This document shows positions 10,802 to 22,373 of a DNA stretch of 64,000 nt, in pieces; positions within the stretch are counted from its first letter, which is position 1; the number at the start of each line of letters is the position of its first letter. The stretch is taken from positions 1-64,000 of the forward strand of contig JBDRZP010000008.1 of the NCBI GenBank assembly GCA_039804025.1. Reading direction: 5' to 3'. Under the pieces are notes generated by a model. The model had not been told where the DNA came from. It ran no database searches and saw nothing but the letters and a program-made list of their open reading frames with translations. Position numbers and translations under genes: made by a program. The stretch comes from a candidate division WOR-3 bacterium. Its GTDB lineage: Bacteria > Hydrothermota > Hydrothermia > Hydrothermales > JAJRUZ01.

Positions 10802-13315
10802 TTATTCAATATTTAAAATCTTTATTGTTTCTGTTTTTTCTCCAAAATTTACTTTTAAAAAGTAGATATATTTATTTAACTCATTCTTTTCTATTTCAAT
10901 TCGGTGCATTCCCTTTTGAACAGGTCCATAGTTTCTTCTTTCAATTAATGAACCATTTTCACTATAAAAGTTCAAAGATATTTCACAGGGGTTTTTAATA
11001 TCAAAAACTAAAACAAGGGACTTTGGATTTTGTAAGACATAGAGAATATTATCTTCAACAGGTGGTTTTACCTTTTTAGGAGGGAAATCATAGTCACCAG
11101 TCCCGGAAGGACCTTCAAATTTTAAAATAAATGCATCATAATATCCTGCAAATCCCTGATAATAGGCACCACCCGGATTATATGTTGGAAAATTAGTTGA
11201 AGAAGTCCATCCTGTTAAAAAAACATTACCATTTGCATCCGTTGTAATTAAATAGCCATAATCATCACTACTTCCTCCATAATAAGTAGCCCATCCTCTC
11301 CCTCCGTTGTTATCAAATTTTAAAATAAATGCATCATAATTTCCTCCTCCATATGTTCCTTGATAATAAGCACCACCACCTGGATTATATGTTGGGAAAT
11401 CGGTTGAAACAGTCGTTCCTGTTACAAAGACATTTCCATTTGGATCTGTTGTAATTGAATAGCCTCTCTCATCACCACTTCCACCGTAATAAGTAGCCCA
11501 AAGCCTTACTCCAGAATTATTAAATTTTAGAATAAATGCGTCACCCCCTCCTGCATTTGTTCCCTGGTAATAAGCGCCACCACCTGGATTATAAGTTGGA
11601 AAATCAGTTGAATAAGTTTCTCCTGTTACAAAAACATTACCATTTGCATCAGTTGTAATTGATGCGTATTCGAATCCATCAGCACTACTTCCTCCGTAAT
11701 AAGTAGCCCAAAGCCTTACTCCTGAATTGTTAAATTTTAAAATAAATGCATCAGTACTACCTGCAATTCCTCCTTGATAATATGCGCTACCTCCTGGGTC
11801 GTATGTGGGAAAATTAGTTGAGTAGGTCCATCCTGTTAAAAAAACATTACCATTTGCATCTTGTGTAATAGAAAGACAATAATCCCAATTACTTCCTCCG
11901 TAATAAGTAGCCCAAAGTCTTTGCCCTGTATTAGTAAATTTTAAAATAAATATATCAGCATTTCCTGCATATGTTTCTTGGTAATAAGCCCCACTTCCTG
12001 GGTCGTATGTGGGAAAATTAGTTGAGTAGGTCCATCCTGTTAAAAAAACATTACCATTTGCATCTGTTGTAATTGAATAGCCCATGTCATCACTACTTCC
12101 TCCATAATAAGTAGCCCATTGCCTTACCCCTGAATTGCTGAACTTTAAGATAAATGCATCCATATATCCTGCATTTGTTCCCTGATAATATGCACCACCA
12201 CCTGGATCTTGTGTTGGAAAATTAGTTGAAGTCGTCTTTCCTGTTACAAAGACATTTCCATTTGGATCTGTTGTAATTGAATAACCTCCATCATCACTAC
12301 TTCCTCCATAATAAGTGGCCCAGAGCCTTTGACCAGAATTATTAAATTTTAGAATAAATGCGTCACCCCCTCCTGCATATGTTCCCTGGTAATAAGCGCC
12401 ACCACCTGGATCATATGTTGGAAAATTAGTTGAACCAGTATATCCTGTTAAAAAAACATTACCATTTGCATCCGTTGTAATTGAATAGCCATAATCATTA
12501 CTACTTCCTCCATAATAAGTAGCCCATAGAAGCGCAAGAGGCGGATCAATAATTAAATTTGATTTACGAGTATAGTTTTTAACATCATAAGTAATAAAAC
12601 CCTCTTCATCTACTTTATATAAAACATGAATATAGGATTTTCCACCTTCATAAGATAAAATTTCACCATCTTCTATTTTCCCAATAGGTGTTGATAAAAT
12701 AAGCTTATTACCCTCTATCTTATAATCAGCATATTTTACTTTCATCTTTATCTTTGAAATATCTGCATAAAGCTTTATAAGAAACTCATGATGAACCCTC
12801 CTATCCTCATATCTCCATACCCAGTCAATCCCAGGATAAATCTCTCTTATCCTTACCTTTCTATAAGTTATAACACCAAGAATTCCATCAGGGCAGGATG
12901 TAAGATAATAGTTTGAATAACCTGGTAAGGGATCTTCAAATTCTATATTTTCTTCTTTTATATTTGCATTTATAAGATCAATATCTATTCTTAAATATTT
13001 TACTTCTTTAATTTCAAATTCTTCATCCGTTAAATGTTTTTTCACATTATCCATATTTTTTTCTGAATCTTCTTTTTTCATTCCATAAATTACATAAGAA
13101 ACACCTTTTTGAGTTATAAATATTCCAAGACCAGGAAGTATTGCTCTTATAAGAACTTCTTTTACAGGATTACCTTCAAAATCCTGAACCTGCCCATAGT
13201 TTTTTTCAAATCCTACATATTCTCTATTTAATACTACAAATTCCTCAGGTGTTTGATAACCTTCAAGGGCATATAGCCCTGTTAATATACCTACGAGAAC
13301 CTCTACTTTCTTCAT
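10802..13315 (-). CDS. Secreted SBBP beta-propeller protein with sorting tail
   Basis: 837 aa. Signal-like N-terminus, then a domain of about 250 aa (FEKNYGQVQDFEG.. type) common in front of SBBP repeats, then seven repeats of about 70 aa starting WATYYGGSS and ending ..GDAFILKF (residues about 260-750), which form beta-propeller blades. The last 80 residues are a Por/T9SS-like sorting domain (YIYFLKVNFGEKTETIKILNIE end). Surface or secreted; ligand unknown. Neighbouring genes at 13384 and 16250 are also large tailed proteins. Starts at ATG with a weak GAAAG; T-arm-like element 21 nt upstream. Confidence 0.9.
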   Translation of the reverse strand: MKKVEVLVGILTGLYALEGYQTPEEFVVLNREYVGFEKNYGQVQDFEGNPVKEVLIRAILPGLGIFITQKGVSYVIYGMKKEDSEKNMDNVKKHLTDEEFEIKEVKYLRIDIDLINANIKEENIEFEDPLPGYSNYYLTSCPDGILGVITYRKVRIREIYPGIDWVWRYEDRRVHHEFLIKLYADISKIKMKVKYADYKIEGNKLILSTPIGKIEDGEILSYEGGKSYIHVLYKVDEEGFITYDVKNYTRKSNLIIDPPLALLWATYYGGSSNDYGYSITTDANGNVFLTGYTGSTNFPTYDPGGGAYYQGTYAGGGDAFILKFNNSGQRLWATYYGGSSDDGGYSITTDPNGNVFVTGKTTSTNFPTQDPGGGAYYQGTNAGYMDAFILKFSNSGVRQWATYYGGSSDDMGYSITTDANGNVFLTGWTYSTNFPTYDPGSGAYYQETYAGNADIFILKFTNTGQRLWATYYGGSNWDYCLSITQDANGNVFLTGWTYSTNFPTYDPGGSAYYQGGIAGSTDAFILKFNNSGVRLWATYYGGSSADGFEYASITTDANGNVFVTGETYSTDFPTYNPGGGAYYQGTNAGGGDAFILKFNNSGVRLWATYYGGSGDERGYSITTDPNGNVFVTGTTVSTDFPTYNPGGGAYYQGTYGGGNYDAFILKFDNNGGRGWATYYGGSSDDYGYLITTDANGNVFLTGWTSSTNFPTYNPGGAYYQGFAGYYDAFILKFEGPSGTGDYDFPPKKVKPPVEDNILYVLQNPKSLVLVFDIKNPCEISLNFYSENGSLIERRNYGPVQKGMHRIEIEKNELNKYIYFLKVNFGEKTETIKILNIE
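11100..12530 (-). repeat. Tandem coding repeats of the SBBP gene
   Basis: Seven units of roughly 210 bp. Stretches such as ACTTCCTCCATAATAAGTAG and TCCTGTTAAAAAAACATTAC recur almost unchanged, so units have been copied or homogenised recently. Units differ mainly in the residues after YYGGSS and around STNFPT. Confidence 0.85.
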
Positions 13316-13383: not shown

Positions 13384-16239
13384 TCATCTTATTAAAATTA
13401 CTTTTTTCTGAAATTTTTGTTTTCCGGTTTGAAGATTTAGAAAATAGATTCCCTTAGCAAGTTTTGTATGAATTTTTAGTTTTTCACCTTCACTTATTTT
13501 TCCCCTTGATAATGTAAATATCCTTTGTCCCAAGACATTATACAGGTTTATTTTAACATCAGAAGGTCTTTCTAAAGTGTAATTAATGTGAATTATATTG
13601 TCTTTTATGATATTTGGGGATACATTAAAGAAAGTTAATTTGTTATTTCTTTCACTTACTTCTTTTATATGAACCACATTCCAGTATCTTGCATAGGCAG
13701 TATCACAGTATTTGCGGAGTTTGGTGAAGGAAGTTGCTCCAAGTATTGCAAAAGCAGTGATTATACTGTCTTGAGAATTTATATTAAAAGGTCCTGCAGA
13801 AATACAGGTTGACCAGTCATAAGGTCTATCTGAGAAAAGAACTTTTATTGTTCCGTTCATAAATTGGAACTGGATATTATCAGGTAATCCACCATAAGGA
13901 TACACATATTGAGCATGATCAATTAAAGAATGATTTATCTTTCCGGAATTTCTTGGTGGGTCAATTACTGCTGAACCCATAACGACACTTCCGTAATACA
14001 TATAGGCTAAATTCCGAATTGTATCAACTCCTCCCACATTCTGCTGATAATCTCCAATATCCCAGTCAAGAAAGATTGCAGAATACAGATTGTTGACAGT
14101 GGTATTTCCTCTATTTTTTATAGTAAATTTATAAATAACAAAATCATCAGCACTTGTGTCTCCCCATGCAAAAGTTTCCTGTTTAACTAAAATATTTTTA
14201 GAAGAGGGGTGACCTGAATCATCATAGAGTGCAATTGTGTATTCATCAGAAAAAGGACCTGGTTCATATAATCTTACTTTTCCTTCTGGATCTAATGTTA
14301 TCCAATCTTGGTCATCACCCTCTTGATTGTAATATCTATCAACAACATAGGATGTAGAATTTCCGATTGCAAAACTGCCGTAAAATAAATGACTCGGAGA
14401 AGTTTTTGGATAATGGCAGCCCCTGCCATAAATCATTGGTGGATATGAACTCATATACCCAATTGAACCATGTCTTGTTACAGATAAAACTATATTTCCT
14501 GTATCGTGTGTTACATAATCAAATCCAGGTATTCCTATATAAGTTTTAAAGAATTTTGTTGATGAATATCCCTGAGCATTTATTTCAAGAGTAAAAAGAA
14601 CTTCAGAACCCCATGGAGCATCATAATGAGCAAAAATTTTATAAGGATCATTTGGATTATTTACACTGTCACCTGGATAAATATCTCCAAAAGATGATAT
14701 GGAATCAATTATTGATACATATGGGCTTTGTGTTTTTAAAACTCCATAAGTATTCACCGCTGGTCTGCCACCTGAGTTTTTTAGATTGATAGTTATATTT
14801 GAATTCTCCCCTGGTTCCCATATTCCATTCTGGTTTTGGTCATCTCTTTGGAAAGAAAGTAAATAAATGAATGGTTCATCAGGAGTTGGCGTATTTAAAA
14901 GGGCTTTATAAATATTTAAAATACCCCATCCATAATCAAAATTTGGGCAAGGCTCTACTTGTCGAGCAGAATTTACAAGGATGGTGTATAAATCATTTGG
15001 AGTTAGGTTTGGATTTTTTTGAAGTAATATTGCTACTGCTCCGGTAACATGTGGGCATGCCATTGATGTGCCACTCCAGGCTTGGTAACCTCCTCCTGGG
15101 ACAGATGATCGCACATAGACACCTGGTGCTGATATATCGGGTTTAATTAAATTCCAATCAGGACGATACCAATACTGGGGATCATTCCAGGGAGATTCAT
15201 CAGGAGCAGGACCACGAGACGAAAAATTTGCAATCACATCACTTATATCTGTGGCTCCAACTCCAATAACAGTAGGATAATTTCCAGGTGTATTAGCAGT
15301 TCCATAATTTGGACCACTATTTCCATTTGAAAATACAGGGAAAATCCCCATTGATTTCCATGTCAGAATAATTGGCCAGAAATGCAAGTCAAGGCGACCA
15401 CCACTCCAGGAATTACTAACTGCTCTTATATCAACTCCGCTTTCTTTCCAGTCAACAATCTTTTGCATGCAGGGATCGATCCATTCATAGTAACCTATCC
15501 CGCCTGAGAACCCTTTTGCTGTTACAAATTTTACATCAGGTGCAACTCCTATATCATCCTGAAACGGTCCTAAGCCGTCTCCTCCACATATTGTTCCCAT
15601 CGTATGTGTTCCATGTCCATCATTATCATAAGGAGAAGGTTGTCCATAAACTCCATCAAACCAATAGGGAGAAAGCCATTTATTTTTTAATGCAAGATGG
15701 GAGGTATCAACACCTGTGTCAATGTGTCCTATTATAATTCCCTGACCTGTATAACCTGCCATCCAGCAAGAATCTGCTCTAACACGCAGTATATTCCATT
15801 CAACAGTTTTTTCTCTCAATTCTCTTTTTTCTTTTTTAATTATACCATCCAGTATTATCTTTTCGTTTCCACATATAAACCATATATCATTTAATTTTTC
15901 AAGGGTATAGATCACAGATTTTGTAGCTTTAATATGAAATCCATTAAAAACCCAGAATTTTCTAAGAATTTCATATTCATCGGATTTAAAATTATTTTTC
16001 AGGAATTCTATAATTTTATTTTGTGAATTTTCAGCTATACTTTTAAAAATTTTTGCTTTTTCTTTATATGAGAGATTATCAACTTCTTCATAAGGGTATA
16101 TAGTTGAAAGGTGAACAATGGCAAATACCTTATCCTTATTACCGATTCTTTCAAGTTCTTTTTTTAATTCAGGTGTTATTTTCCCTTCAAAAGGTAAAAA
16201 AGGCAAAATTCCAAGAAAATAGAGTAGCAAAAAATTCAT
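13384..16239 (-). CDS. Secreted subtilisin-like (S8) peptidase with sorting tail
   Basis: 951 aa. Signal peptide, an I9-like prodomain (about 20-130), then the S8 catalytic domain with all three residues: Asp in GHIDTGVDTSH, His in DGHGTHTMG, Ser in SGTSMACPHVTGA. A long beta-rich region follows, then a Por/T9SS-like C-terminal sorting domain (LYNVLGQRIF..KGIYFLNL..KKVILIR). Likely exported and surface-attached. SD AGGAG. Sits between two other tailed proteins, probably one transcript from 18619. Confidence 0.95.
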   Translation of the reverse strand: MNFLLLYFLGILPFLPFEGKITPELKKELERIGNKDKVFAIVHLSTIYPYEEVDNLSYKEKAKIFKSIAENSQNKIIEFLKNNFKSDEYEILRKFWVFNGFHIKATKSVIYTLEKLNDIWFICGNEKIILDGIIKKEKRELREKTVEWNILRVRADSCWMAGYTGQGIIIGHIDTGVDTSHLALKNKWLSPYWFDGVYGQPSPYDNDGHGTHTMGTICGGDGLGPFQDDIGVAPDVKFVTAKGFSGGIGYYEWIDPCMQKIVDWKESGVDIRAVSNSWSGGRLDLHFWPIILTWKSMGIFPVFSNGNSGPNYGTANTPGNYPTVIGVGATDISDVIANFSSRGPAPDESPWNDPQYWYRPDWNLIKPDISAPGVYVRSSVPGGGYQAWSGTSMACPHVTGAVAILLQKNPNLTPNDLYTILVNSARQVEPCPNFDYGWGILNIYKALLNTPTPDEPFIYLLSFQRDDQNQNGIWEPGENSNITINLKNSGGRPAVNTYGVLKTQSPYVSIIDSISSFGDIYPGDSVNNPNDPYKIFAHYDAPWGSEVLFTLEINAQGYSSTKFFKTYIGIPGFDYVTHDTGNIVLSVTRHGSIGYMSSYPPMIYGRGCHYPKTSPSHLFYGSFAIGNSTSYVVDRYYNQEGDDQDWITLDPEGKVRLYEPGPFSDEYTIALYDDSGHPSSKNILVKQETFAWGDTSADDFVIYKFTIKNRGNTTVNNLYSAIFLDWDIGDYQQNVGGVDTIRNLAYMYYGSVVMGSAVIDPPRNSGKINHSLIDHAQYVYPYGGLPDNIQFQFMNGTIKVLFSDRPYDWSTCISAGPFNINSQDSIITAFAILGATSFTKLRKYCDTAYARYWNVVHIKEVSERNNKLTFFNVSPNIIKDNIIHINYTLERPSDVKINLYNVLGQRIFTLSRGKISEGEKLKIHTKLAKGIYFLNLQTGKQKFQKKVILIR

Positions 16240-16249
16240 AATTTTTCTC

Positions 16250-18619
16250 CTATTTTAATAAGATAATCTTTTTGACCTCTTTTTTATTTCCTATTGATGC
16301 TTTAAGGAAATAAGTTCCGGTTTTTAACTTTCTTCCAAAATCAGATTCACCATTTAAGATGATGAAGTTTTTATCTCTTACATTAAACTTTTTGATAACA
16401 CTTCCCTTTATGTCAAGTATTTCTAAACTTAAAGGTGAATTAAGAGATTTTAAAAGCTCAGGGTTTAATAGTATTTTAATTTCATTTTTAAAGATATTCT
16501 GTGAAAGAACAAAAAGGTTAATTTCCTTATGTTTTTCTTTTTCTGAGATATTAGTGTAGCCAAATCTGTATCTAAAAATACCTCCTTTTGTTGTTACATA
16601 AATTATTGAATCCTCACTCCATTCTACTCTATGAATATAAGGAATTGGAGGAACTGGGAATTCTTCCCATGTTAATCCACCATTATATGTTATGTAAAGT
16701 TGAGAAGGAGGAGGAGAAATAGCAATTACCTCAAAATAATCTAACAAGTGTGCTGAGTAGTATAATACCCAAGGGTAATTTACACAAACCAAAATAGTTT
16801 CAGGAGAGGATGGTTTGAAACAGATATCATGGATATCATTATAGACGGAAGAAGGAAAAGAAGCGATAGGGAAGTAAGTTTCTCCTCCATCCATACTTTT
16901 AAAAAGCACCTCCGAATGGTCAGCTGCCAGAATAATATTAGGATTTTGAGGATAAACAGCTATTGCTGTGCCTATCTTGCTAATAAATTCTCCGCTTCTA
17001 AAAATTTTCTGCCAAGTTGTGCCCTGATCTTGACTTTTTTTTGCAAGACAAGAATCCCTGTCAGGACCAAATGGGGGACGTTTAGTTACAAAAATTGTCT
17101 GGTCTGGACTAATTGTGATACCGGACCAGTATGCTGCTGGAGACAAAATCTGATTAAAAGTCAAAGCACCATCAGAACTTTTATACACGGAGTTTCCTGA
17201 ATTTGTAACGTATATATTAGAGAAAGTATCCATTACGATTTTCCCAACTCCGTCATAGCTTCCTCCTAAAGTGGATCTATAACTCCATGTTTGTCCTGAA
17301 TCTACGCTCCTATAGAATTTAGAAGCTCTGCCAATTATATCTGTAGGATATGGGTATGATACATAGATTTCATTTAAATTTTTAGGGTTAATAGCAATAG
17401 TATTAAACTTTAAATCAGCATTTAAAATTCCCTGATTTTTAAGTGTCCAGGTTTTGCCTCTGTCATTAGATATAAATATACCATTTGCTAAAGAAGTTAC
17501 ATATATTTTATTTTTATTTAAGGGATCTATTGCAATTCCATAGGTATAAGGGGCTCTAAGACCTTCATTAAGAAGAGTCCATGTCATACCTCCATCGGTT
17601 GATTTATATAAACCTTGAACATTTGAAATGTAATATGTAAAGGATTGTGAAGGATCCTGAATAATACGGGAAGCATAAGGAATTTTCATACCAGAGTTTG
17701 AAGAAAACCAGCTTTGACCTCCATTAATACTTTTATAAATACCTCCCTTATCTGCAGCAATAAACATTAAATCAGGGTAATCTTTGTCTATGAGTAATTC
17801 AGAAAAATAAGAAACTGGAAGTGAATTCCAGGGTAAGCTACCAACTTGAGACCAGTATTCTCCGTTATTTAAACTTTTCAAAACATAAGTTTCGTTTATA
17901 GTTCTAGCTAAACAATAAATAACATTACTGTCTGAAGGATGGAAAGCAAAGCCATAACAATATTGGTAGGAACTCTCATAAACCTGAGACCAACTTTCTC
18001 CATAATCCGTGCTTTTATATATGACACCATACCAATAACCAGAACCTGATCTTTCACCACCGGCAAAAATAATATTGGGATAAAAAGGATGAATTGCAAA
18101 ATCCATAACATTTACATCTGAAGGTAATGATAGCTGTTGCCAAGTAAAACCGCCATCTGTGCTTTTAAATCCAGGACCCCCTAAATCTCTATCGCAGATA
18201 AAAATTAAGTTATCATTTTGTGGATGAATTCTTATTGGATAGTTAAAAACATCAGTTCCTCCTAACTGAATCCAGGTTTGTCCACCATCCATTGTTTTAT
18301 ATAAACGTGTGTCATAATAAAAATGGAATCCAAGTCCAATAGTTCCAGTAAAAACATAAATAATGTTTTCGTCTTGTCTACTAACAGCTATATCCCAGAT
18401 GGGTGCAAATGGACCTGAATTAAAAGAAAAAGTATTACCCCCATCAGTGCTTTTCCATATTCCACCGTAATAAGTTCCTAAATAAAAAACACCTGGTGAC
18501 GGCATATCAAAGGCATAGACTATTGCACCATTAGGAGATATGTTTTCCCATTCTGCCTTCAGGCTCCCAAAAAAGAGGAGCCCTATTATTACTATAAGTT
18601 TTATTTTATTTTTACCCAT
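16250..18619 (-). CDS. Secreted BNR/Asp-box (sortilin-like) propeller with sorting tail
   Basis: 789 aa. Signal peptide, then many Asp-box motifs of the form S.DGG.TW (GIWKSTDGGNTF, YKTMDGGQTWIQL, FKSTDGGFTWQQL, YKSTDYGESWSQV and more), which build one or two beta-propellers as in Vps10/sortilin and exo-sialidase-like proteins. No catalytic sialidase set is obvious. The C-terminus (LKTGTYFLKA..KKIILLK) is a Por/T9SS-like sorting tail. Strong SD (AAAGGAGG). First of three tailed proteins, divergent from the regulator at 18774. Confidence 0.9.
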   Translation of the reverse strand: MGKNKIKLIVIIGLLFFGSLKAEWENISPNGAIVYAFDMPSPGVFYLGTYYGGIWKSTDGGNTFSFNSGPFAPIWDIAVSRQDENIIYVFTGTIGLGFHFYYDTRLYKTMDGGQTWIQLGGTDVFNYPIRIHPQNDNLIFICDRDLGGPGFKSTDGGFTWQQLSLPSDVNVMDFAIHPFYPNIIFAGGERSGSGYWYGVIYKSTDYGESWSQVYESSYQYCYGFAFHPSDSNVIYCLARTINETYVLKSLNNGEYWSQVGSLPWNSLPVSYFSELLIDKDYPDLMFIAADKGGIYKSINGGQSWFSSNSGMKIPYASRIIQDPSQSFTYYISNVQGLYKSTDGGMTWTLLNEGLRAPYTYGIAIDPLNKNKIYVTSLANGIFISNDRGKTWTLKNQGILNADLKFNTIAINPKNLNEIYVSYPYPTDIIGRASKFYRSVDSGQTWSYRSTLGGSYDGVGKIVMDTFSNIYVTNSGNSVYKSSDGALTFNQILSPAAYWSGITISPDQTIFVTKRPPFGPDRDSCLAKKSQDQGTTWQKIFRSGEFISKIGTAIAVYPQNPNIILAADHSEVLFKSMDGGETYFPIASFPSSVYNDIHDICFKPSSPETILVCVNYPWVLYYSAHLLDYFEVIAISPPPSQLYITYNGGLTWEEFPVPPIPYIHRVEWSEDSIIYVTTKGGIFRYRFGYTNISEKEKHKEINLFVLSQNIFKNEIKILLNPELLKSLNSPLSLEILDIKGSVIKKFNVRDKNFIILNGESDFGRKLKTGTYFLKASIGNKKEVKKIILLK

Positions 18620-18693: not shown

Positions 18694-18706
18694 ATTGTGG
18701 CACAAT
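18694..18706. promoter_or_regulatory. Perfect palindrome ATTGTGGCACAAT
   Basis: A 13-bp perfect inverted repeat (ATTGTG-G-CACAAT) in the intergenic space between the surface-protein operon and the regulator gene, 26 bp from the regulator's -35 box. A plausible dimer-binding operator; the binder is unknown. Confidence 0.5.
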
Positions 18707-18731: not shown

Positions 18732-18760
18732 TTGACTTTTTTTATTATTTATTTTATAAT
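18732..18760 (+). promoter_or_regulatory. Promoter of regulator gene
   Basis: TTGACT, 17 nt, TATAAT. The ATG used is at 18774, 13 nt after the 10 box, giving a leader of about seven bases and no SD. This also rules out an upstream GTG/TTG start inside the promoter. Confidence 0.7.
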
Positions 18761-18773
18761 TTTTCCACAAAAT

Positions 18774-21020
18774 ATGACAAATAATTTAATTATACCTATA
18801 GAAGTAATTGAACATTATCTCAATAATGGTTCATTAAGAAAGACTGCTAAGAAATTTAATATCCATTACAACACTCTTTGGAATTGGGTAAAAATATATA
18901 AAAATCAGGAATTTAAAGATCAAGGAAAATTTGATGAAGGAATTTTTTATGGATATAAAAGGCCCTGGAACAGGATAGAAAGGGAATTAGAGGAGAAGAT
19001 TGTTTTATTAAAGGAAAAGGATCCTGCATTAACTTTAAAAAGGGCAAAGGAAATTTTAGAAAAGGAGAATATAAAAATATCAATAAAGGGTATATGGGGG
19101 GTATGGAAAAGATACGGTTATGCAGGTTTTAAAAAGGAGAAAATCAGTAATAATTTTGTTGAATATGTTTCCTGGTCTAAGGAAGCAGAGGTGAAATATA
19201 AATTAGCTGAAACTTTTTTTGTTAAAAGGGAATTCAAAAAAGCAGGAGAAATTTTAAATTCTGTTCCTGTTTTACCTAAAAATGAAATTTTAAAAGAAAT
19301 TCCTGATGAATTTTTAAACCTTAGAAGAAAAATTGAAAAAATACTTTCTCTTTTTGGAAAAATAAAAGTTAAATCTTATATTAAGAAAATCAAAAAATTG
19401 TATAAAGAATGCTTAAAAAGAAACTTAAATTATTCAGCATTAGTTATTGGGTTAGCTGAAGTTGTGGTTTTAGAATGGGTTGGAAAGGCAAATGAAGGTT
19501 TGAAAAGAATAAAGGAATTGGAAAGAATATTAAAAAGAAAAAAAGAGTATTATTCATATTTACTTTTTAATTTAAAATTTACCCTTCTTATAGAAAAGGG
19601 GATACTAAATGCTTATTTAGGAAGGATATATTACGCCCGGAGATATGCAAATCTATGTAAGAAAATATTAGAGAGAAAAAAAAGTTCCTCTCCTTATCTT
19701 ATGCTTGATCTTGCAACTCTATACACTCATATAGGAGATTATAGAAAAGCTGAATATTTCTTTTTAAAATCTCTTGATGGTTTAGATGAAGAAAATAAAA
19801 AATGGGTAAATTATAACCTTGCAATGATTTTCTTTTTAAAAGGTGAATATAAAAAGGCAAAAGAACTTTCAAAGAATGCCTATTTTGGAGATTGGGCACA
19901 AAAAAGTTTCAGAGATTTATTTTACTCTCTTTTTTATCTTTTAAAAGGCGAACTAACAAGATCTATTTTTTTATGCAATAATGCTATCAAAAATTTTAAA
20001 AAAGAAGAACTTGGTTTAGGTATGTTTTATTCATATCTTACAATTTCAGCTTGTTACTCTGCTTTAGAGGAAGTAAGAAAATCTAAAAAGTTATTAAAAA
20101 GAATTTTATTTTTCTGTAAAAATAAAGGGTTAAAAAAATATCAAAATATTATTGAGATTTTATTAGGTAAAAATGAAAAAATTTTAAAATCAAAAAAGAG
20201 TAACTTATTCTCTTCTATTTATATTATGACTTTGCTTAAAAAGAAAAAATTTATTAAAGCATTTTCTTTTGCAAAGAAAAAAGGTATATTAGGTTTTTTT
20301 TACCGGTTTATTTTCTTTTTCCCTGAATCCTTAGAAAGTTTCATTAAAAAAGGTTTTATTAAATTCCCAAAAAAAATTTTGAATCTACCTGTTTTAAACA
20401 AGGAAAATCCTGTATATGAAATAAAATTTCTCGGAAAATTAAAGATTTATAAAAGAGAAAAGGGTGAAAATAAAAGATTTTTAAAAATTAATTTATCTAA
20501 CAGAGAAAGTGCTTTTCTTATTTATCTTGCATTGAGAATAAATGAACCTGGAAAAAGTATCCCTCTTCAATTTATTTATAATAATTTCTTCAATAGAACA
20601 AAAAACCCACAAAAAAATTTTAGGAGGTTACTTAAAAATATTAAGAAAAAATTAAAAATTAGAGGGTCTTTGATTGATATTAATAAAAGAGACAAAACTT
20701 TAAAAAATAATGGAGTTTATTTTATAACAGATTATCAGGAGTTTATGCAAGCACTTACAGCTGCAAATACATTCTTGCAGGCTGGTGAATGGGAATATGC
20801 AAAAAGGGAATACCTAACTGCTTTTGATTTATTTAGAGGAAAACCTTTTGAAAAAATGTATGATAACTGGTCAGAGGATATGAGAACAAGTATTATTTTA
20901 AGGTTTGAAGCAGAAATTAAAAATTTTATTAATGCAGCAAAAAAACATGGAGATACAAAAGCTTTATTGAAAATTCATGGTAAAATTAAAACTTTAATAG
21001 ATAATTCTCAGGAGGAATAA
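18774..21020 (+). CDS. Transposase-like HTH / TPR / SARP-BTAD-like regulator
   Basis: 748 aa. Residues about 8-45 are a helix-turn-helix of the transposase/IS630-integrase kind (GSLRKTAKKFNIHYNTLWNW); about 60-125 is a second DNA-binding-like helical part (EEKIVLLKEKDPALTLKRAK.. KGIWGVWKRYGYAG). A long helical, TPR-like middle follows (about 140-500). The end (about 545-745) has the SARP order: FLGKLKIYK and SNRESAFLIYLAL (winged HTH), then a BTAD-like helical bundle (AGEWEYAKREYLTAFDLFRGKPFE). Probably a transcription regulator of the divergent tailed-protein operon. The 3' end overlaps the ABC permease gene by 35 nt. Confidence 0.8.
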   Translation: MTNNLIIPIEVIEHYLNNGSLRKTAKKFNIHYNTLWNWVKIYKNQEFKDQGKFDEGIFYGYKRPWNRIERELEEKIVLLKEKDPALTLKRAKEILEKENIKISIKGIWGVWKRYGYAGFKKEKISNNFVEYVSWSKEAEVKYKLAETFFVKREFKKAGEILNSVPVLPKNEILKEIPDEFLNLRRKIEKILSLFGKIKVKSYIKKIKKLYKECLKRNLNYSALVIGLAEVVVLEWVGKANEGLKRIKELERILKRKKEYYSYLLFNLKFTLLIEKGILNAYLGRIYYARRYANLCKKILERKKSSSPYLMLDLATLYTHIGDYRKAEYFFLKSLDGLDEENKKWVNYNLAMIFFLKGEYKKAKELSKNAYFGDWAQKSFRDLFYSLFYLLKGELTRSIFLCNNAIKNFKKEELGLGMFYSYLTISACYSALEEVRKSKKLLKRILFFCKNKGLKKYQNIIEILLGKNEKILKSKKSNLFSSIYIMTLLKKKKFIKAFSFAKKKGILGFFYRFIFFFPESLESFIKKGFIKFPKKILNLPVLNKENPVYEIKFLGKLKIYKREKGENKRFLKINLSNRESAFLIYLALRINEPGKSIPLQFIYNNFFNRTKNPQKNFRRLLKNIKKKLKIRGSLIDINKRDKTLKNNGVYFITDYQEFMQALTAANTFLQAGEWEYAKREYLTAFDLFRGKPFEKMYDNWSEDMRTSIILRFEAEIKNFINAAKKHGDTKALLKIHGKIKTLIDNSQEE

Positions 21021-21699
21021 TTTTTAATATTATAAAAATTGTCAAAATTGAACCAATAAAAGAAATTATTGAAAAAAATGGTAAGAAAAATATTAAAAAG
21101 AAATCATAAGGTGAAGCAAGGGCTATGAATAAAATAAAAAAACTTATAAAACCAAAGGCAAAAAAAGATAAAAGCGAACTTGTTCTCTGATCTGTGAATA
21201 TAAAGTAAAAAAGTGCTTCTAAATTTAAAATTGAAATACCTAAAAGAGGTGAAAATAAAAGAAAATTTATCCAGTATAACTTACCTTCAAAAAAAATCTT
21301 TTCAAATCCACTTCCAGATAATTTCAATAAAAGAACATAAAATAAAAAGGAAAAAAGAAAAACTGAATATAAAACTATAAAACTTGCTATTATTTTACTC
21401 AAAAGTATTTTAAAAGGAGAAAAAGAAAATGCTAAAAGAGTTTCAAAATATTTCTTAACTTTTTCCTTGTGTATTATTTCATCCATACTCATTCCACCAA
21501 TAAAAGCAAAAATAAAAAGGGGGATTAAAAGAGAAAAACATTTTGTAAAGGTATATTCAGGACTTGATGGAGAGATATCAGAAGGTGTTGCAAGACCCTT
21601 TGCAGAAAAGAAAATCATATTTAAAATAAATAACCATAAAAAATTTAAAGGTCTTTTTATATAAAAATAAATAATTTCCCTTTTTATTAAACTTTTCAT
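20986..21699 (-). CDS. ABC-2-type transporter permease
   Basis: 237 aa with six hydrophobic segments. The cytoplasmic stretch between segments 2 and 3 (EKVKKYFETLLAFSFSPFKILLSKII) is the coupling region of ABC-2 permeases. Pairs with the ATPase gene immediately upstream (4-nt overlap). Substrate unknown. Convergent overlap of 35 nt with the regulator gene. Confidence 0.87.
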   Translation of the reverse strand: MKSLIKREIIYFYIKRPLNFLWLFILNMIFFSAKGLATPSDISPSSPEYTFTKCFSLLIPLFIFAFIGGMSMDEIIHKEKVKKYFETLLAFSFSPFKILLSKIIASFIVLYSVFLFSFLFYVLLLKLSGSGFEKIFFEGKLYWINFLLFSPLLGISILNLEALFYFIFTDQRTSSLLSFFAFGFISFFILFIALASPYDFFLIFFLPFFSIISFIGSILTIFIILKIIPPENYLLKF

Positions 21700-22373
21700 T
21701 TTATTTTTTCAAAATAAAAATCCAAAAGTTTTCTGCCTTTTAATTCCTCTGTTTTAAATTTTCCTAAAAATTTTCCCTCTTTAATTATACCAAAATGCGT
21801 GGAATAATATTCTATAAATTCAAAATCATGGGAAGTTATGAAAATTATTCTGCCTTCCAATTCCTTCCTTAAAAGTTCATATATCTCCCTTCTTGTCTCA
21901 ATATCAATAATTTCAAAAGCTTGGTCAAAGATTAAAACTTTCGGATCATTTATAAGTGCTTTTAAAATACATAATTTTTTCTTATTACCCTTTGATAACT
22001 TATAAATTTTTGTATTTTTATCTTCATATAAATTAAATTTTTTTAAAAGTTCCTCTAAATTAACTTTTCTTTTTAAAATCTCTGCATAGAATTTAAGATA
22101 TTCGAGAGGCGAGAAAAATTCAAAAGGCATTTCATCCTCAAGAACAAAACCTATCTCCTCTTTTTTTATTTCTCTTCCATTATAGAAAATACCTGCCTTA
22201 CCAGAACTTGGTTTTAAAATTTTTAAAAGTATTCTCACTAAAGTTGTTTTACCTGAACCGTTTGAACCAATCAGAACAAAAAACTCATTTTCCTTTATTT
22301 CAAAATTTATATTTGAAAGAGCCTTTCTTTTATCATAGAATTTAGTAAGATTTATAACCTCAATTTTTAACAT
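21696..22373 (-). CDS. ABC transporter ATP-binding protein
   Basis: 225 aa. Walker A GSNGSGKTT, Q-loop region, signature LSKGNKKKL (a divergent LSGGQ), Walker B KVLIFDQAFE with an unusual Gln after the Asp in place of the Glu, and H-loop TSHDFEF. Works with the ABC-2 permease that follows. Lies 23 nt after hemL, so may be co-transcribed with it (a CcmA-like haem exporter is possible but not supported by sequence). Confidence 0.9.
   Translation of the reverse strand: MLKIEVINLTKFYDKRKALSNINFEIKENEFFVLIGSNGSGKTTLVRILLKILKPSSGKAGIFYNGREIKKEEIGFVLEDEMPFEFFSPLEYLKFYAEILKRKVNLEELLKKFNLYEDKNTKIYKLSKGNKKKLCILKALINDPKVLIFDQAFEIIDIETRREIYELLRKELEGRIIFITSHDFEFIEYYSTHFGIIKEGKFLGKFKTEELKGRKLLDFYFEKIK

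Follow-up and report, generated by a model that had tools for sequence, protein, structure and literature searches.

A WOR-3 regulator family with transposase-type and SARP ends, paired head to head with type IX secretion cargo genes

The window analysed here is a 64,000-nucleotide stretch of a candidate division WOR-3 genome (GenBank assembly GCA_039804025.1, contig JBDRZP010000008.1, positions 1–64,000). At 18774–21020 it carries a gene for a regulator with a transposase-type double helix-turn-helix (HTH) at the N terminus, a middle of tetratricopeptide repeats (TPRs) and a C-terminal end of the kind found in Streptomyces antibiotic regulatory proteins (SARPs), a winged HTH (wHTH) followed by a bacterial transcriptional activation domain (BTAD). 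The protein belongs to a large family of WOR-3 bacteria, apparently undescribed so far, whose members share this architecture, stand in a fixed head-to-head pairing with cargo genes of the type IX secretion system (T9SS), have a conserved promoter anatomy and occur as closely related regulator–promoter units in front of unrelated cargo. We consider it fairly probable that each member is a dedicated SARP-class activator of its divergent T9SS cargo gene or operon, and the pairing suggests a separate, private switch for each surface protein. New relative to the sequence-only reading are the large paralogous family, the reading of the tails as T9SS sorting signals and the conservation of the shared promoter region.

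Architecture of the regulator

Taken alone, the window protein gives only weak Pfam and NCBIfam matches; relatives were therefore gathered, and the domain counts below are given over 65 near-complete aligned copies. The parts of the gene are as follows.

18774–21020, + strand: regulator open reading frame (ORF), 748 aa; transposase-type double HTH, TPR repeats and C-terminal SARP end (wHTH–BTAD)
18798–18908, + strand: HTH 1, residues 9–45, HTH_23/HTH_28 (Pfam, 62/65 relatives)
18981–19112, + strand: HTH 2, residues 70–113, HTH_32/HTH_29 (HTH_32 in 51/65), second half of the IS481/IS630 DNA-binding region
19179–20348, + strand: TPR/MalT-like repeat middle, residues 136–525, a putative sensor (Pfam TPR_12 in 49/65, TPR_MalT in 21/65)
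20415–20723, + strand: SARP wHTH, residues 548–650 (profile–profile comparison, AlphaFold2 model and Foldseek; Trans_reg_C in 11/65)
20730–21002, + strand: BTAD, residues 653–743 (PF03704 subthreshold; profile–profile comparison; Foldseek)

The mechanical ORF start is a TTG at 18732, and because this codon sits within the −35 box of the regulator promoter, the ATG at 18774 is the likely start. A transposase-like DNA-binding N terminus had been proposed by the sequence-only reading, and the alignment bears this out: the IS481 transposase model matches all 65 relatives, covering residues 10–121 of the window protein with its double HTH, and the individual Pfam families are HTH_23 (62/65), HTH_28 (60/65), HTH_32 (51/65) and HTH_29 (39/65). 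The DDE integrase core is absent from this match, the IS481 model aligning only over the first 112 of its 284 positions, with 28.5 bits against a cut-off of 224. The helices of HTH 1 lie at residues 9–18, 21–27 and 32–45 in a low-confidence AlphaFold2 model of the window protein; since this full-length model, made from two input sequences, reaches a mean predicted local distance difference test (pLDDT) of only 53, secondary structure alone was taken from it. In the middle, TPR_12 is found in 49/65 relatives and TPR_MalT (PF17874) in 21/65, in line with the TPR-like repeats first noticed there.

At the C terminus, single sequences match BTAD in 18/65 relatives (E < 0.01) and Trans_reg_C in 11/65. 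Because a search of the SARP-end profile against PDB sequences returned only CadC (E 0.016), we applied hhalign and Foldseek to this end. The family profile aligns with the SARP C termini of LAL-type proteins from the same genomes over 199 columns (hhalign 99.3%, E 5e-20), and an AlphaFold2 model of residues 538–748 (211 aa, two input sequences, pLDDT 74.5) has its five closest PDB matches in structures of EmbR (2ff4/2fez) and AfsR (8k60/8hvr). Both comparisons recover an OmpR-type wHTH followed by a BTAD, the SARP order already suspected, here at residues 548–743 of 748 and not N-terminal. HTH-type DNA-binding domains thus occupy both ends, separated by about 425 aa, close to the roughly 400 first estimated. 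The Pfam and NCBIfam lists for the window protein and the 65 relatives contain no ATPase (NOD/AAA) family. Two other descriptions, a pure TPR adaptor protein and a transposase remnant, were rejected on the conservation of the HTH and SARP parts in intact copies. The three-part architecture (HTH, TPR, SARP) is real.

Pairing with type IX secretion cargo

About 90 full or partial copies from 26 WOR-3 genomes were examined, with up to 20 kb fetched around each. An upstream neighbour is present for 86 copies and is divergent in 84. Among the 70 complete neighbours, 60 are both divergent and T9SS-tailed, as against 5/312 background genes from 20 loci of 20 kb picked arbitrarily in these genomes (Fisher p about 4e-53, a value that assumes independent copies, which these are not fully) and 10/510 among the other genes of the member loci. 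Genes directly next to family members were kept out of the training set of the sorting-tail profile behind these counts. The pairing is present in 24 of the 25 genomes with a complete neighbour, and neighbours cut by contig ends mostly resemble the same protein class. The contexts of the homologues are therefore non-random.

The partners are T9SS-tailed β-propellers (BNR, sortilin, SBBP, Kelch and FG-GAP) and subtilases. A C-terminal type A sorting domain is called by TIGR04183 in 46/72 partners and by PF18962 in 39/72, a set in which some partners are cut by contig ends and the window's own is counted through TIGR04183. Each tested genome of the phylum has 36 to 150 sorting-domain matches, and an SprA/Sov-like translocon is found in 9/9 genomes tested, the window's included, above the curated cut-off in 8; given this abundance and the translocon, the tails are likely to be real T9SS signals. 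In two genomes a family member (L046:8958-11195, L048:8632-10872) lies about 3 kb upstream of sprA, with two genes between.

In the window, the regulator had been described as diverging from three large tailed surface proteins, and this picture stands, with two called as T9SS type A and the third carrying a similar tail that TIGR04183 does not call.

16250–18619, − strand: head-to-head partner, a secreted BNR/sortilin-type β-propeller with a T9SS type A sorting domain above cut-off
13384–16239, − strand: subtilase with an above-cut-off T9SS type A sorting domain (TIGR04183 E 1.3e-9), separated from the partner by 10 bp on its downstream side
10802–13315, − strand: SBBP β-propeller with a sorting-like tail seen in the sequence (no TIGR04183 call); probably the third gene of the partner operon

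On its other side, the regulator converges with an ABC transporter pair (20986–22373, − strand), whose permease ORF overlaps the regulator 3′ end by 35 bp and whose ATPase has a sub-cut-off GldA match.

Two promoters and a candidate operator

The intergenic region holds the following elements.

18732–18737, + strand: −35 box TTGACT of the regulator promoter
18755–18760, + strand: −10 box TATAAT, after a 17-bp spacer, ending 13 nt before the ATG
18762–18767, + strand: TTTCCA element just 3′ of the −10, conserved in the family
18694–18706, no strand: perfect palindrome ATTGTGGCACAAT, operator candidate, its centre 32 bp upstream of the regulator −35

With the statistics anchored on aligned regulator starts, a TTGACA-N16-18-TATAAT promoter (at most 2 mismatches) is present no more than 30 nt from the start in 77/78 intergenic regions, compared with 59/321 background genes, and [GT]TTTCC[AG] follows the −10 directly in 52/78 compared with 0/321. 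A strict form of the regulator-promoter pattern has 11 matches in seven whole genomes, all 11 at family members, and none in the family-free genomes G029 and G031; the window's own copy, with TTGACT, falls just outside it. As the −10 is so near the start codon, the regulator transcript is apparently leaderless or nearly so; the partner genes often have an AGGAGG-type ribosome site. The position of TTTCC, 3′ of the regulator's own −10, suggests autoregulation through this element, which may take the form of autorepression.

The cargo promoter is built differently, with a weak, TTAAAA-like −35 and the form ACACAATT-N5-TATAAT (21/79 compared with 1/317 in the background), so that an extra element lies at about −25 to −18. 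Between the two promoters is a weak palindrome, AAnCCTT-N7-AAGGnTT, recovered from both anchors and scoring 5.29 compared with 3.24 ± 0.53 in a held-out test on 28 copies outside its derivation. In the window, ATTGTGGCACAAT occupies the same position; it has no other exact copy in the window's genome and only one in G030.

Range and evolution of the family

A search of the phylum (147 genomes, 79 genera) is positive for 32 genomes, many of which carry several full-length copies, and in the profile search the family copies separate cleanly from general TPR proteins. A broad search of 390 genomes from 303 genera finds 28 positive genomes, all within the WOR-3 phylum, and neither the plasmids nor the viral contigs searched contain relatives. 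A contig scan with exact peptides of the window protein, too narrow to support a negative, found one relative. Several copies (L039:9115-11376 in G076, and others in G073 and G065) are each broken by one in-frame stop codon, in most cases TAG; these are probably decaying, with recoding as the alternative. Shorter members (L106, L107, L109, L104 and L105) lack the stretch between the HTH region and the TPRs, and L107 and L109 are each followed by a similar gene pair downstream. Literature searches, confined to open-licence papers, found no account of this architecture and none of WOR-3 regulators that are paired with T9SS cargo; in the main text of both a genome survey of the phylum (PMC12542636) and the description of a WOR-3 isolate (PMC12285271), the words regulator and secretion are absent.

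The family tree (FastTree, local supports only) requires 20 changes of taxonomic family where the minimum is 5, from which copies have probably crossed between taxonomic families. Very similar regulators often stand opposite unrelated partners, and on this ground the regulator and its promoter act as a portable unit. In the pair L060/L061 (82% DNA identity), the homologous stretch runs from the regulator through both promoters into about 90 nt of the partner's leader and extends no further.

The domains differ in their conservation, with mean pairwise identities of 48% for the BTAD, 42% for the wHTH, 40% for the HTH and 28%, the lowest, for the TPRs. BTAD identity is 65% within a genome compared with 48% between genomes, and some pairs from the same genome are 84–88% identical in the BTAD but only 21–28% in the TPRs. 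Among L056, L055, L057 (G069), L076, L054 (G067) and L059 (G013), paralogue BTADs are 68–88% identical while the TPR middles are 21–29% identical, and in the G013 paralogues the HTH and wHTH are likewise 68–88% identical despite diverged TPRs. Judged by these alignments, the paralogues of G069, G067 and G013 look like mosaics formed by recombination; together, the partner swaps and the contrasts in domain identity point to modular exchange between family members. Regulator 3′ ends with 100–250 nt of downstream DNA are common to otherwise diverged copies (L045, L070 and L084 in G080; L051 and L069 in G074; L055/L078), and part of this downstream DNA is a dispersed repeat found elsewhere in the genome. 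Inspection of four pairs by eye found no clear terminal repeats or target duplications. One member is followed, 365 bp downstream, by an IS481-like transposase (L051:13644-14738) with an N terminus related to that of the family. The same genomes encode several LAL-like ATPase–TPR proteins with a C-terminal SARP (L084:9265-12495, loci L133–L148), a possible source of the family's SARP end.

Tentatively, these features may describe a portable cassette, a fusion of transposase DNA-binding region and SARP with its bidirectional promoter, that moves among unrelated T9SS cargo genes and exchanges domains by recombination to yield a combinatorial, individually switched surface repertoire. As part of the same tentative picture, the ends, the BTAD above all, would be homogenised within each genome and the TPR sensor diversified.

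A proposed mechanism and its alternatives

If the regulator is an activator, it would be made from its own near-consensus, near-leaderless promoter and would bind the shared intergenic region through both the transposase-type HTH and the SARP wHTH. Its activity would be tuned by the TPR middle in response to a ligand, which may be the cargo itself before export or a product that the cargo handles. In the active state, the SARP/BTAD end would dock RNA polymerase at the cargo promoter, where the weak −35 would need help. SARPs activate through contacts to region 4 of sigma (sigma R4) and the C-terminal domain of the alpha subunit. In AfsR, the SARP dimer takes the place of the sigma-R4 contact at a poor −35, with the OmpR-type DNA-binding (ODB) and bacterial transcriptional activation (BTA) domains touching the polymerase (PMC10936776). 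We favour activation since the cargo −35 is weak and the BTAD conserved.

Several observations count against this proposal. SARP target promoters contain direct repeats at a spacing of 11 or 22 bp, with 8 bp between the 3′ repeat and the −10; before the cargo −10 we find no excess of such repeats. The window's own cargo promoter does not clearly show the ACACAATT-N5-TATAAT form. A sequence-blind scan for palindromicity at the operator position gives only z about 2, for which reason the palindrome is graded as a suggestive operator candidate. In the window protein, PF03704 stays under the Pfam cut-off (E 0.007) and the C-terminal end of the BTAD is shortened. Finally, regulators with similar TPRs show only a weak tendency to have partners of the same type, which disfavours strict recognition of the cargo by the TPRs.

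A dedicated repressor, holding the cargo gene off on the shared region until the TPRs bind a ligand and using its SARP end for DNA binding alone, is unlikely, though the likeliest of the alternatives. An element placed like TTTCC, right behind the −10 of the regulator's own promoter, is typical of (auto)repression, and many divergent local regulators repress; the layout of the cargo promoter, with its weak TTAAAA −35 and the element at about −25 to −18, is nevertheless of the activated type, and the most conserved domain is the BTAD, the part that contacts RNA polymerase in SARPs (PMC10936776).

In a secretion-coupled switch, the TPRs would bind unexported cargo in the cytoplasm, as TPR chaperones do in other secretion systems, and so keep cargo expression in step with T9SS capacity. 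Peptide binding by TPRs is known from many systems. The strict pairing with export substrates and the two copies near sprA agree with such a role, but unrelated cargo stands opposite closely related regulators whose TPRs are alike, so that recognition would need something common to the cargo proteins, for instance the sorting tail; we regard such a switch as improbable.

That the family is a selfish or mobile module, an IS481-like descendant comprising regulator and bidirectional promoter and still inserting before surface genes, strikes us as very improbable. Its universal IS481-type DNA-binding end, the DNA homology of close copies that stops just beyond the cassette when partners are unrelated, the cross-family spread and the shared 3′ flanks would all fit, whereas the lack of a DDE catalytic domain, the undemonstrated terminal repeats and target duplications, and a non-random placement, in almost every case head to head with a T9SS cargo gene, do not. 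Ordinary lineage-specific SARP paralogues, lying beside surface genes simply because these genomes are rich in tailed genes, are hardly credible and already contradicted by the rarity of divergent tailed neighbours in both backgrounds.

Relation to known systems

The proposed activator resembles AfsR and the large Streptomyces SARPs in having a SARP domain (wHTH and BTAD) and a TPR region on one chain, and it is predicted, like AfsR, to aid RNA polymerase at a poor −35 (PMC10936776). It differs in that its SARP domain is C-terminal, whereas that of small and large Streptomyces SARPs is N-terminal, in lacking an ATPase/NOD, in having a second, transposase-type DNA-binding end and in being tied to T9SS cargo instead of antibiotic genes, with the 11-bp direct repeats not found. 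By these differences in domain order, ATPase, repeats and second DNA-binding end, the regulator would work like a SARP yet is no ordinary one.

As in the LAL-type ATPase–TPR–SARP proteins, such as L084:9265-12495, a C-terminal SARP follows the TPRs, with homology over the 199 columns; those proteins have an N-terminal ATPase, in place of which the window family has an IS481-type HTH, and the family lacks the last part of the BTAD. With MalT and other LAL activators it shares the TPR_MalT-like sensor region, but neither the ATPase nor a LuxR-type HTH. With IS481/IS630 transposases it shares the N-terminal double HTH (residues 10–121), but it has no DDE catalytic domain and is a stand-alone regulator. 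Similar to PorXY–SigP of Porphyromonas, it would control a type IX secretion programme, although in this family every regulator has a single cargo gene or operon as its partner.

Implications

Little is known about the control of individual T9SS cargo genes. A family in which regulators are paired with their cargo and the promoter grammar is fixed makes this control testable, with operator, regulator and target promoter together in about 2.5 kb. The combination of domains also provides a natural example of a probable activator that incorporates a transposase DNA-binding region, and the family offers one of sensor and DNA-binding ends being exchanged as modules.
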